A DNA stretch of 64,000 bases from Desulforegulaceae bacterium (lineage in GTDB: Bacteria > Desulfobacterota > Desulfobacteria > Desulfobacterales > JACKCP01): positions 1 to 64,000 of the forward strand of contig JAVETN010000011.1 of assembly GCA_034006035.1 (NCBI GenBank). Reading direction: 5' to 3'. The stretch's first letter is position 1. The number at the start of each line of letters is the position of its first letter. Shown here piece after piece: positions 8,821-15,228 of the stretch. The position numbers and the translations under genes are program-made. The notes beneath the pieces are model-generated. The model had not been told where the DNA came from. It saw only the letters and a list, made by a program, of their open reading frames with translations, and made no database searches.

Positions 8821-9099
8821 ATGGAAACACAGGCACTTAGTTTTTTTATCGCATCGGTTATAGGAGCCAGCTTTGGTCTTGCAATTGCAGCAGCATTTTG
8901 CGGATTAAGCCAGGGTATGGGTCTTAAAGCAGCTGTTGAAGGTATCGCACGTAACCCTGAGTCTTCAGGTAAGGTTACTGTTACCTTGCTTATCGGTCTT
9001 GCGATGATTGAATCACTTTGTATTTATGCCCTTGTTATTTCTCTTATCCTTATTTATGCACACCCTCAGGCAGAAGTAATTGCAGCTCTTCTTGGGTAA
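8821..9099 (+). CDS. atpE: F-type ATP synthase subunit c
   Basis: A 92-residue hairpin of two membrane helices with the polar loop ARNPE, the standard c subunit. The ion-binding carboxylate is Glu64 in IGLAMIESLCIYALV. Gln31 in helix 1 and Ser65 after the Glu align with two of the Na+ ligands of Ilyobacter c subunits, while the following Thr is Leu66 here. Proton versus Na+ use is therefore open but leans to Na+. A strong AAGGAGG site fits high expression, and a terminator follows. Confidence 0.95.
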   Translation: METQALSFFIASVIGASFGLAIAAAFCGLSQGMGLKAAVEGIARNPESSGKVTVTLLIGLAMIESLCIYALVISLILIYAHPQAEVIAALLG

Positions 9100-9130
9100 T
9101 TAACTGCTTAAATTATCAGGTAAGTGAAAA

Positions 9131-9168
9131 ATAAAAAAGTCGGGGACATTTTCTCCGGCTTTTTTTAT
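9131..9168. terminator. Bidirectional intrinsic terminator between atpE and uvrA
   Basis: A nine-pair stem (AGTCGGGGA at 9138-9146, TCTCCGGCT at 9152-9160, two G-T pairs) closes a five-base loop, with an A-run before it and a T-run after it. It lies between the converging ends of atpE and uvrA and can serve both. Confidence 0.8.
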
Positions 9169-9189
9169 TTTAAACCTCTAAGTCTTTAT

Positions 9190-12006
9190 TTAGTTTTTTA
9201 AAATTTGTTTTAAAAATTTTCCTGTATGTGATTTTTTGTTTTTTGCAATTTCTTCAGGGGTTCCGGCTGCAACAATTTCTCCCCCTTCATCTCCTCCCTC
9301 AGGGCCAAGATCAATTATATAGTCTGAAAATTTAATCACATCAAGATTGTGTTCAATTACTATTATTGTGTTATCTGCCTTTACCAGCTTGTCCAATACT
9401 TCAAGAAGTTTTTTTATATCGTCAACATGAAGTCCTGTGGTGGGTTCATCTAGAATATACAAGGTGTTTGTTCCGGTTTTTTTTGAAAGTTCCCTTGAAA
9501 GTTTTATTCTCTGGGCTTCCCCTCCTGAAAGAGTGGTTGCTTGCTGGCCAAGTTTTATATATCCTAGTCCAACATCTTTTAATGTCTGAAGTTTGCTTTT
9601 TATCAATGGTATATTGGTGAAAAATTCTGAGGCCTGATTAATCGTCATATTAAGGACATCAGCTATATTTTTTCCTTTGAATTTTATGTCAAGGGTTTCT
9701 CTGTTATATCTTTTCCCTGAACAAAGGTCGCATTTAACATAAATATCAGCCAGAAAATGCATTTCAATTTTTATTACCCCATCTCCAGAACAGGCCTCGC
9801 AGCGGCCGCCTTTAACATTGAAGCTAAATCTTCCCGGCTTGTAGCCTCTTGCCTTTGATTCTTCTGTTTTGGCAAACAGCTCTCTTATATAGGTAAATAT
9901 TCCTGTATATGTTCCAGGATTTGATCTAGGAGTTCTTCCTATTGGAGATTGATCAATGTTTATGATTTTTCTTATGTTTTCACTTCCTTCTATTGAATCA
10001 TATTCTCCGGGTCTGAAAAGGTTTTTTCCATTAAATTTATTTAAAAGAGCCTTATAAAGAGTTTCAATTACAAGGGTTGATTTTCCTGAACCTGAAACTC
10101 CTGTAATACAGGTAAAAGAATTAACCGGGAATTTTACATTAATGTTTTTAAGATTGTTTTTTTTTGCTCCTTTTAATTCAAGAAATTCTTTTGCTTTTCT
10201 TCTTTTGGCCGGGATTTCTATTTTTTTTCTTCCTGAAAGATATTGTCCTGTAAGTGAATTTGATTTTAGTATTTCTTTAGGAGTTCCTTGAAAAGTTATT
10301 TCCCCTCCTAAAACTCCAGCTCCCGGGCCCATGTCAATTATTTGATCTGAATGAAGAATTGTATCTTCGTCATGTTCAACAACAAGGACTGTATTTCCAA
10401 GGTCTCTCATTTGTTTTAAAGTGTTTATCAGCTTTAGATTATCCCTTTGGTGAAGGCCAATACTTGGCTCATCAAGTACATATAAAACTCCTGAAAGCTT
10501 TGATCCTATTTGGGTTGCCAGTCTTATTCGTTGGCTTTCCCCTCCTGAAAGAGTTGAAGCTGTTCTTGAAAGGGTAAGATATGAAAGACCTACACTGGAT
10601 AAAAACTCCATTCTGTCATTGATTTCTTTTAAAATAGGCTTTGAAATTTCACCTTTTTTTCCTGGAAGTTTTATTTGGGATAAAAACTTTTTTGAATCCC
10701 TGATTGCCATATCACAGATTTTTGGCAGTGTTTTTCCTTCAATTTTTACTGACCTGCTTACAATATTAAGTCTTGTGCCTTTACATGAAGAGCAGGGAAT
10801 AAAGTTCATATATTCTTTTATTTCTTCACGGGATGCTGAAGATTTGTCTGAATCTAGGTATTTTCTTTTAAGGTTTTCGACTATGCCTTCGTATTTTTTA
10901 TTTTTAACTTTTTTTCTGCCTTTGACCTGGTATTTAAAAGGGATCATATCTTTTGAACCATAAAGAATTGTTTCCTGGCATTTTTTTGGCAGATTTTCAA
11001 ATGGAGTGTAAATATCAGCATCATAAAAATTAAGAATAGATTCTATAAAATCTAAAAAATAAAACGAAGTTCTGTTTGCCCAGGGTCTTATTGCCCCCTG
11101 TCTTATGGAAAGTTTTTTATCTGGTATTATCATTTCAGGATCAAGTTCTGTGGTGTTTCCAAGACCGTCACATTCAGGACATGCCCCCTGGGGAGAGTTA
11201 AATGAAAAACTTGAAGGCTTAAGTTCTGGATAGTTGATTTGGCATTTGGTACAGGCAAGGTTTTCACTGAACAAAATATCTTTTTCAAGATCAAGGTTTA
11301 CTATTAGATTTCCATTTGACATTTTAAGTGCAAGCTCAACACTGTCGGAAAGCCTTTTTTCTATTCCCTCTTTATTGACAAGCCTGTCAATTACAACGTC
11401 TATATTGTATTTTTTGTTTTTGTTCATTTTAGGCAATTCATCAAGATCATAAATTTCATTGTTTATTCTTACCCTTGCAAAACCTTCCTTTTTAAGGCTT
11501 TCAAAAGTTTTTTCATGGGCTCCTTTTTTCTCAATAAAAATAGGAGACAAAATAATTAGTTTTGAAGATTTGGGGAAATTGATTACTTGATCAATTATTT
11601 GATCCACACTTTGAGCTTCAATTTTATCTCCGCAGGACCAGCAATAAGGGGTTCCTGTGCGGGCAAATAAAAGCCTTAAATAATCATAAATTTCAGTAAC
11701 TGTTCCAATAGTTGATCTGGGGTTATGGCTGGCAGATTTTTGTTCTATGGCAATTGAAGGAGAAAGACCGTCAATAGAGTCAATATCTGGTTTTTCCATC
11801 TGGCCTAAAAATTGTCTGGCATAGGTTGAAAGTGATTCAACATATCTTCTTTGGCCTTCTGCATATAAAGTATCAAAGGCAAGAGAGGATTTTCCAGAGC
11901 CTGAAAGTCCTGTTACTACAATAAATTTATCTTTGGGTATGTCTACATCAATGTTTTTTAAGTTGTGCTCCCTTGCACCTTTGATGGATAAAATTCTTTT
12001 TTTCAT
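9190..12006 (-). CDS. uvrA: UvrA, nucleotide excision repair damage-recognition ATPase
   Basis: UvrA scans DNA with UvrB and starts excision repair. The 938-residue protein has the two ABC ATPase halves: Walker A motifs [14 protein letters not shown] near residue 33 and [15 protein letters not shown] near 635, and two ABC signatures ([24 protein letters not shown]). Zinc modules are seen as [21 protein letters not shown] and CEACSGDG with [10 protein letters not shown]. The length matches the family. No SOS-type CTGT-N8-ACAG operator is visible in the 114 bases upstream. It follows pdxA on the same strand. Confidence 0.97.
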
Positions 12007-13125: not shown

Positions 13126-13824
13126 TTCTTAAAATCCTTTTTATTTAATAAGTTGTCTGAGTTAAAATTTAATTTAGCGGGTTTAAGTTTGGCGAAATAT
13201 AAAATACACTAATTTTGTTTATCATGGAATCTTTGTAAAAGCTAAAAAACAATTTAGCCTGCAAACTTTGCTTGAAACTGGGCAGAACAGTGTTTTTAAA
13301 AAAGAACAAAATCTTTTACAATCATGTTCTAAAATCATTTGATTTCAGGAAGTTAAAAGAATTCAAGCTTAAAATTGAAAGAATAGACAAAATGTTTTTA
13401 AAAAAAATTGTCCAAGATTGCAGATTGTTAGATGAAAACCGAAGTAAAGCAGAGTAAATCTTCAAAAAACGGAGCTTTTTTAAAAAAGATGTTTTTTAAA
13501 ATATTTGATAAACCTCTGAAACCTACCAGAATATTTGACAAAACTCCTTAGATGAAAAAAACCTTGTATAATGAGTGCTTTAAAAGATATTATCTGGTTA
13601 ATATAGATAAATTCAGGATGTTAGAGTTTTTAAGGGTAAAGGACTAAAAACAGCTGTAACTGGATTTAAGTATGATTGACCTTAATCAATATCTGGATTA
13701 AGTATCTTGTCTATAAAGTTCAAGTTTAGTTTTTTTAAAAAAAATCACACAAATCATCGCTAATGTATAAATTTTGGGAATTTTTAATTTCCAGGAATTA
13801 GTATTTTTAAAAAAAAGTGTTGTT
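13126..13824. other. Long AT-rich intergenic region between pdxA and the dnaA-like gene
   Basis: About 700 bases with no convincing gene. A 61-codon frame at 13272-13457 has no good ribosome site and Lys/Phe-rich composition typical of AT-rich noise. No canonical TTATCCACA DnaA box is present, so an origin is not supported. Two sites matching the DnaA box at 7 of 9 positions occur: TCTGGTTAA at 13593-13601 and TCTGGATTA at 13692-13700, plus a weaker CTGGATTTAAG at 13660. Near-direct repeats of AATATTTGAYAAA occur around 13500-13545. Confidence 0.5.
13676..13704 (+). promoter_or_regulatory. Candidate promoter of the dnaA-like gene
   Basis: TTGACC (13676-13681) is followed after 17 bases by TAAGTA (13699-13704). 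The -35 match is good and the -10 weak. The second CTGGATTAA site lies in and over the -10, which would fit autoregulation by the product; this is inference. Confidence 0.35.
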
Positions 13825-15228
13825 ATGGATAATTTTTGTTCAAGGATTAAAGAAAAATTAAAAGAAAAAATGCCGGCCCATTCTTTCAATATGTGGATTG
13901 ACCCTTTGTCAATTAATTTGGAAAATGGTAATAAGGTTATAGTTGAGTGTAAAAACAGTTTTTTCAAAAAAAGAATTTTGGAAAACTACTCAGAAATTAT
14001 TAAAAAAGTTTTGGCTGAAGATACAGAAAAAACTGATCTTGTAGTTGATTTTACCGAGTCTTCAACTTTAAATTTAAAAAAGAAACCCAAAAAAAAGCAA
14101 TTATCCAAAAATATTGTAAAGCCTACACAAAGAGAAAAGCATTTGTTTTCTGATAATAAACAAATGAGTTTTTTTGGAGACAGGTTTAAATTTCAAAACG
14201 GAAGATTTCTAAGGGCAGGGTATACTCTTGATAATTTTATTGTGGGGAAAAATTCAGAGTTTGCTTATTCTGCAGCTCTTTCCCTTGCTTCTCCTAAAAG
14301 AAGAACTCCATATAACTCAGTTTATATTCAGTCAGACACAGGCCTTGGTAAAAGTCACCTCAGCCAGGCCGTAGGCCATCATATATTGACTGATTTTCCC
14401 CAAGAGGCTGTTTACTATGTAACTGCTGAAGATTTTACAAACGAGATGGTAATGAGCCTGAAAAGTGATAATATAAACAGCTTTAAGGAAAGATATAGAA
14501 AAAAATGTGATGTTCTTCTTATGGATGATGTTCAGTTCCTTTCAGGGAAGGCAAGAACTCAGCAGGAACTTTCAATGATTCTTGATTATCTTATGGAAGC
14601 TGACAAAAAAATAATTTTTTCAGGAAGTCTTTCTCCACTTGAAATTCCAAAGCTTGACAATCAGCTCAAATCAAGACTTTCCTCCAGCCTTTTGTCCATA
14701 ATTGACAAACCTGATTTTGCAACGAGAAAGAAAATAGCCAGAAAAAAAGCTGCTGCTTCAGGGTTTAATATTTCAGACAATATAATCGAGTATCTTGCAA
14801 GTGAGCTTACAGACAGTATCAGACAGCTTGAAAGTGGAGTTAATTCTGTAGGGATAAGAAGTTCTCTTTTAGGGGTTCCCTTAACTCTTGGACTGGCTGA
14901 AGAGATAATGGCTGAAATTACAGAAACAAAAAGGGAAATCACAATAGATTCCATTAAAAAACTTGTTTGTGATGAATTTGGAGTCACTGTTGACAATCTT
15001 GTTTCCAAATCAAGAAAACAGGCAATTGTTCGTCCAAGACAGATTGCAATTTTTCTTTCAAGGAAATATACTGATCAGCCTTTGCAGTTTATTGGAAAAA
15101 GTTTTAACAGGTATCATGCAACTGCTATTCATTCAATCAAAACAGTGGAGCAGGGAATTAAGTCCAGGAATGCATTTTTTAAACAAGTTGAGGTTTTAGA
15201 AAAAAAGCTGGAAAGCAAATTCTCTTAA
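13825..15228 (+). CDS. Divergent DnaA-family replication initiator (DnaA paralogue)
   Basis: The domain order is that of DnaA: a short domain I (MPAHSFNMWIDPL), a low-complexity Lys-rich linker, an AAA+ core with Walker A SDTGLGKSHLSQA and Walker B LLMDDVQFL, and a C-terminal helix-turn-helix domain (RPRQIAIFLSRKYTDQ). The 467 residues are a normal length. The usual box-recognition signature GGRDHTTV is replaced by N-RYHATAI, one residue shorter, and Walker A has Ser for Thr. Neighbours are pdxA and a glcD-like gene, not dnaN, so this is probably a second DnaA rather than the chromosomal initiator. ATG 13825 was chosen over TTG 13774 because it begins directly at domain I. Confidence 0.85.
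   Translation: MDNFCSRIKEKLKEKMPAHSFNMWIDPLSINLENGNKVIVECKNSFFKKRILENYSEIIKKVLAEDTEKTDLVVDFTESSTLNLKKKPKKKQLSKNIVKPTQREKHLFSDNKQMSFFGDRFKFQNGRFLRAGYTLDNFIVGKNSEFAYSAALSLASPKRRTPYNSVYIQSDTGLGKSHLSQAVGHHILTDFPQEAVYYVTAEDFTNEMVMSLKSDNINSFKERYRKKCDVLLMDDVQFLSGKARTQQELSMILDYLMEADKKIIFSGSLSPLEIPKLDNQLKSRLSSSLLSIIDKPDFATRKKIARKKAAASGFNISDNIIEYLASELTDSIRQLESGVNSVGIRSSLLGVPLTLGLAEEIMAEITETKREITIDSIKKLVCDEFGVTVDNLVSKSRKQAIVRPRQIAIFLSRKYTDQPLQFIGKSFNRYHATAIHSIKTVEQGIKSRNAFFKQVEVLEKKLESKFS

Follow-up and report, generated by a model that had tools for sequence, protein, structure and literature searches.

The only DnaA of a Desulfobacterales genome has changed DNA-reading residues and appears to go with an altered DnaA box

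DnaA is the protein that starts chromosome copying. We are fairly confident that, in the order Desulfobacterales, the base-reading residues of the sole chromosomal DnaA and the DnaA box have changed together, and that the origin lies upstream of dnaN. Our starting point was a stretch of 64,000 nucleotides (the window) of a Desulforegulaceae genome of 2.64 Mb, which is assembled in 31 contigs and is 97.7% complete. Judging from the sites near dnaN, TTATNCACA has in all likelihood given way to TTATN(A>G)ACA as the box, with an extended form of roughly A-S-TTATNAACA-A. The dnaA gene of the window encodes the usual initiator of the chromosome, except that the surface that reads DNA has changed.

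The gene (13825..15228, forward strand) starts with ATG and encodes 467 amino acids. Residues 6-462 match the DnaA equivalog TIGR00362 with 385.2 bits, as compared to a cut-off of 343.9. On the forward strand we find domain I (DnaA_N, PF11638, E 8e-12; residues 6-64, 13840..14016), the AAA+ ATPase domain (Bac_DnaA, PF00308, E 2.5e-46; residues 131-289, 14215..14691), and the helix-turn-helix DNA-binding domain IV (Bac_DnaA_C, PF08299, E 1.6e-23; residues 374-441, 14944..15147). So the protein has what is expected of the family: a full-length equivalog match, domains I, III, and IV, and a single gene copy. The original prediction, which was made from the window's letters, held that the AAA+ core was intact and that the motif that reads the DnaA box was altered. 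The first point agrees with the match to PF00308 and with the intact Walker A (SDTGLGKSHL) and Walker B (DVLLMDD) motifs in the alignment. The second is accurate as well: aligned to domain IV of E. coli DnaA (1j1v), residues 427-435 read FNRYHATAI where GGRDHTTV is usual. The altered segment, N428-R-Y430-H-A432-T-A-I-H436 (15106..15132, forward strand), corresponds to G430/G431-R432-D433-H434-T435-T436-V437-L438-H439 of E. coli, with a one-residue gap at GG/N before R432, D433 replaced by Y, and T435 replaced by A. In place of the classic R-D-H-T-T signature (E. coli 432-436), which is typical of the family but does not define it, the protein has R-Y-H-A-T.

A missing residue in this motif had also been pointed out. 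It is indeed missing, but it is not distinctive: the DnaA of Mycobacterium tuberculosis (3pvp) aligns to the window's DnaA without a gap at this site, and FDRDHTT is found in metagenome-assembled genomes of alphaproteobacteria, so the one-residue deletion is ordinary. Because M. tuberculosis DnaA shares it, we ruled out the deletion as the cause of a changed specificity.

The substitutions are shared by the whole clade, which we take to be the order Desulfobacterales on the basis of its named members. (Among the named records, the motif is present in Desulfobotulus alkaliphilus and in others labeled Desulfobacterales, Desulfobacteraceae, or Desulfococcaceae.) In a first comparison, all 29 of 29 full-length DnaAs from the same order had RYHAT or a near form, with one RHHAT. 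We then scored 46 clade members at the base-contact positions of E. coli DnaA, as listed in PMC5043019. D433 is replaced by Y in 45/46, T435 by A in 45/46, and P423 by Q in 41/46, while R399, R432, and H434 are each kept in 46/46. Outside of the clade, position 433 is D in 55 of 70 proteins and position 435 is T or S in 60 of 70. The change cannot be put down to a sequencing error, as it is fixed throughout the clade. A DnaA tree had been proposed as a check, and in it the 46 clade members come together. The 46 are monophyletic (FastTree support 0.86) even when the columns of the recognition helix are removed, so the motif marks vertical descent. Replacement of D433 is also seen in unrelated lineages, as DnaA reads KHHTT in three Terriglobia/Acidiferrales loci (L064, L087, and L090) and in one from Omnitrophota (L073). 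Three genomes (G005, G050, and G051) had no full-length match to DnaA domain IV; G005 is 98% complete and G050 is 95% complete, and these could be assembly gaps or real losses.

To see which boxes are present, we took the regions upstream of dnaN from 40 genomes and obtained expected counts from second-order Markov shuffles. In the 2.5 kb before dnaN, TTATNAACA occurs 89 times (12.4 expected) and TTATNGACA 30 times (3.9 expected), versus 7 occurrences of the canonical TTATNCACA (5.6 expected). At least three altered boxes within 500 bp were found before dnaN in 17 of the 40 genomes (0.35 expected), while three canonical TTATNCACA boxes within 500 bp were found before dnaN in none of the 40. 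In the other 23 genomes, no 500-bp stretch of the 3 kb before dnaN reaches three altered boxes, and their origins may lie elsewhere. In an unbiased ranking of k-mers from the 2.5 kb before dnaN, conserved coding sequence dominates, but GTTAT.AACA still stands out (18/40, 1.0 expected). A genome-wide search gave paired TTRTNAACA before dnaN in many genomes, for example, G006, G014, G015, G021, G022, G031, G035, G037, G045, G046, and the window genome. The clusters can be dense, with ten boxes in 400 bp in G031 and seven in G006; G021 has a mix of TTATCAACA and TTATTGACA before dnaN. A is favored at both outer flanks of the clustered boxes. These clusters of TTATN[A/G]ACA, together with the lack of TTATNCACA clusters in the clade's origin-like regions, support the earlier suggestion of a different binding site, as far as this can be judged from sequence.

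Altered boxes turn up in other settings as well. On contig C1 of one genome (G048) there are two repeats, one of 31 bp (TTATAAACATTTTATCAATAAGTTATGAACA) and one of 29 bp (TTATCAACATGTTAATGCTTTGTTTATAA), both built of altered boxes and with about 20 copies each. In the same genome, the DnaA_C domain is matched 29 times, and several of these matches are in ORFs of about 340 amino acids. G001, G003, G012, G013, G014, G024, and G048 encode many ORFs of 320-350 amino acids with a weak match to DnaA domain IV. These may be transposases of the REP type whose DNA-binding domain resembles that of DnaA.

Upstream of dnaA itself, the counts differ with the protein. At 30 clade loci there are 19 TTATNAACA (3.0 expected) and 1 TTATNCACA (1.1 expected). 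At 53 loci whose DnaA keeps D433 in an [RK]DH motif, there are 105 TTATNCACA (3.5 expected). These 53 loci also have 24 TTATNAACA (3.7 expected), so A at position 6 may be tolerated as a weak box by canonical DnaA too. A rival explanation is that the clade's DnaA has a relaxed rather than a switched specificity, with any base accepted at position 6 and AT-rich drift favoring A. In the clade's clusters, both A and G do occur there, and without the side chains of D433 and T435 a contact could be lost. On the other hand, when clusters were picked with position 6 left free, the 85 sites had A 60 times and G 19 times, that is, a purine in 79, but C just 3 times and T just 3 times. Also, a high-GC member of the clade (G004, 61% GC) still has TTATCAACA before dnaN. 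So we consider a merely relaxed specificity to be unlikely.

We prefer the idea that specificity was switched, and it fits with what is known of how DnaA reads its box. In E. coli, the helix formed by residues 434-451 sits in the major groove and reads the 3' TnCACA there, TTA is read from the minor groove by R399, and the T435M and R399A variants fail to bind (PMC5742627). The clade keeps R399, and it keeps the 5' half of the box too; the altered helix would read the 3' part, which is where the box appears to have changed. The DnaA of the clade would then bind the altered boxes, these boxes would make up oriC, and the substituted residues would be responsible for the shift. Initiation would otherwise proceed as usual: ATP-DnaA would assemble on the clustered boxes and AT-rich DNA would open, at an origin upstream of dnaN instead of dnaA. 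To us this reads as co-evolution of an initiator and its sites.

One DnaA (L048) keeps D433 but has T435A, and there are three TTATTAACA before its dnaN. So D433Y is not clearly the cause of the change in the box, and T435A is a possible first step. Sister lineages with N, S, T, or K at position 433 have so few boxes in the vicinity of dnaA or dnaN that no motif could be read. A bolder proposal is that the order rewrote the DnaA-box code at an otherwise invariant base 6, that the result is an orthogonal pair (the clade's DnaA would not use TTATCCACA, and a canonical DnaA would not use TTATGAACA), and that this happened stepwise, via T435A and the loss of D433 in sister lineages. We give this proposal about an even chance of being right.

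Could the substitutions instead be neutral drift, with DnaA still preferring TTATCCACA and some other factor, such as a regulator of dnaN, binding the clusters of TTATNAACA? In principle, the clusters might be used by some other factor of the dnaN region. Canonical boxes do occur, singly, in the genome. But D433Y and T435A are each fixed in 45 of 46 proteins, canonical boxes are not clustered before dnaN in any of the 40 genomes, and 79 of the 85 clustered sites have a purine at position 6. Furthermore, the clustered motif is a DnaA box in all other respects, and it is found where the GC skew flips. We view this explanation as quite improbable. As for the original prediction that the gene encodes a second, divergent DnaA that serves regulation or a second replicon, its motif is unusual and it adjoins neither dnaN nor recF, but we find this very hard to believe, as it would require a canonical dnaA to be hidden in the missing 2.3% of this genome and in every relative.

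Profile searches of the window genome gave one match to Bac_DnaA and one to Bac_DnaA_C, and both are the gene at 13825-15228; no canonical dnaA is found elsewhere in the 97.7%-complete assembly. Almost every relative encodes one full-length DnaA and no more, and it has this motif too; the 46 clade members form one orthologous group. Because of the single matches and the single orthologous group, we conclude that this is not a second DnaA, and a regulatory role or a second replicon is not supported for what is the sole DnaA of the genome. The prediction was right that dnaN and recF are absent nearby: the neighbors are uvrA, pdxA (upstream, reverse strand), and an FAD-linked oxidase. The dnaN of the window genome is on another contig (G000:C3:95981-97096), and in these genomes dnaN is generally away from dnaA.

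In this order, dnaA and oriC appear to be apart, and the presumed origin appears to be upstream of dnaN. The clearest case is G010, whose chromosome is a single contig of 4.455 Mb. At the ends of this contig, the GC skew goes from negative to positive, and it changes back near 2.2 Mb; dnaN-gyrB is at 4.42 Mb and dnaA is at 1.23 Mb, far from the switch. In the dnaA contigs of G041 and G017, the sign of the skew is the same on both sides of dnaA. These two observations are why we place dnaA and oriC apart. There is no skew flip at dnaA in G010, G041, or G017, nor at dnaA within the 64-kb window. (Among three chromosomes that are complete or nearly so, the skew is clean in G010 alone; in G048 and G053 the noise is too strong for an origin to be placed.) In G010, an AT-rich gap (2275-2872) that is no more than about 2 kb from the skew minimum contains TTGTGAACA and TTATGAACA in opposite orientation and an AT-rich stretch with TAG repeats.

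In the window genome, dnaN runs leftward from 97.1 kb of contig C3, and the 500 bp at 97.2-97.7 kb contain six altered boxes (TTATTAACA, TTGTTGACA/TTGTCAACA, TTATCAACA, and two TTATTGACA) and no canonical box. None of 200 shuffles reached six altered boxes per 500 bp at this site. At this cluster beside dnaN, the skew changes sign, going from about -0.2 to +0.1 or so. So a candidate origin for the window genome, from sequence features, is at about C3:97.1-97.7 kb. Across this AT-rich genome, TTATNAACA occurs 360 times as compared to 308 for its reversed control. This total is near the background; the signal is in the clustering of the boxes, not in their number. If an origin is taken broadly, as clustered asymmetric 9-mers in AT-rich intergenic DNA at a skew minimum, then G010 and the window genome each have a candidate, and there are clusters in G031, G006, and G021. 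Before dnaN, none of the clade's 40 genomes has an origin-like cluster of TTATNCACA. By eye, a gene resembling a lytic transglycosylase is near both candidate origins (L132 746-1546 in G010 and L240 ~8850-9420 in the window genome), and it may be a marker of oriC synteny in the order.

The region upstream of dnaA deserves comment as well. The 700-bp intergenic leader (13126..13824) is a diverged version of a leader that is conserved over about 30 families. About 350 bp are conserved (as in the leaders of L112-L131 and L033-L041), with A-rich AAAGATAAT repeats, GGATATGCTTAAAATGCTT, GTATTTAAAGNCAGTTG, ATAAATTGTTNATAACTTGTT, and the promoter CCGGTTTGACA. The leader also has TTTTAAGCA in tandem, and TTTTTAAAAAA in the window. 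The window's version has a promoter-like TTGACC / TTAAGT (TTGACC at 13676-13681) and, just downstream, a single match to the altered box (TTATAGACA, 13708..13716, reverse strand). This match might be an autoregulatory site, although in 700 AT-rich bases a single match may arise by chance. The conserved leader may be under the control of DnaA, may titrate it in the manner of datA, or may once have been an origin. We rejected it as the current oriC, despite its conservation and its altered boxes, given that dnaA is 1.23 Mb from the skew switch in G010 and, in G041 and G017, lies within a single arm of the skew.

How does this system compare to the known ones? The DnaAs of E. coli and Bacillus subtilis, with their TTATCCACA boxes, share the domain layout, the AAA+ motifs, R399, R432, and H434, a single chromosomal copy, and clustered 9-mers with those of the clade. 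The clade differs by P423Q, D433Y, T435A, and one residue fewer before R432, by having A or G instead of C at position 6 of its boxes, and by presumed origins that are next to dnaN and away from dnaA. M. tuberculosis DnaA (3pvp/3pvv; box TTGTCCACA) likewise has one residue fewer before its RDH motif, but its recognition positions still have D and T, and its box still has C at position 6 (PMC4285127). The epsilonproteobacteria (Helicobacter and Arcobacter, with TTCAC-core boxes) are another example of a clade-specific box preference that is tied to residues of helix 5, but there it is position 5 that changed, from C to T, and C6 is kept; replacement of D433 and boxes with A6 are absent from that account, in the accessible text of PMC5043019. 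In Table 1 of PMC4285127, the high-affinity 9-mers of E. coli, Vibrio cholerae, Pseudomonas putida, B. subtilis, Caulobacter crescentus, Helicobacter pylori, M. tuberculosis, and Streptomyces coelicolor always have CACA at positions 6-9, and only the 12-mer of Thermotoga departs further. The 12-mer boxes of Thermotoga maritima (AAACCTACCACC) are a precedent for a strongly deviating DnaA box; they differ in both length and sequence, while the boxes of the clade are still 9-mers and depart at position 6.

We found no paper on the DnaA boxes of Desulfobacterales in the open literature, which is what our search covered (subscription papers and the DoriC tables were outside of it). As far as the open literature shows, a purine at base 6 across an entire order is undescribed. 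Few protein-DNA codes in bacteria are as conserved as the recognition of the DnaA box, and methods for finding origins use TTATCCACA by default. Going by the sites that we found, Desulfobacterales appears to have rewritten position 6 of the box, with TTATnAACA replacing the nearly universal TTATnCACA. If so, searches that are based on TTATCCACA would miss the origins of a whole order of sulfate reducers. The clade is also a natural experiment in which an essential initiator and many genomic sites appear to have changed together, with named residues, and it may offer an orthogonal initiator-origin pair.
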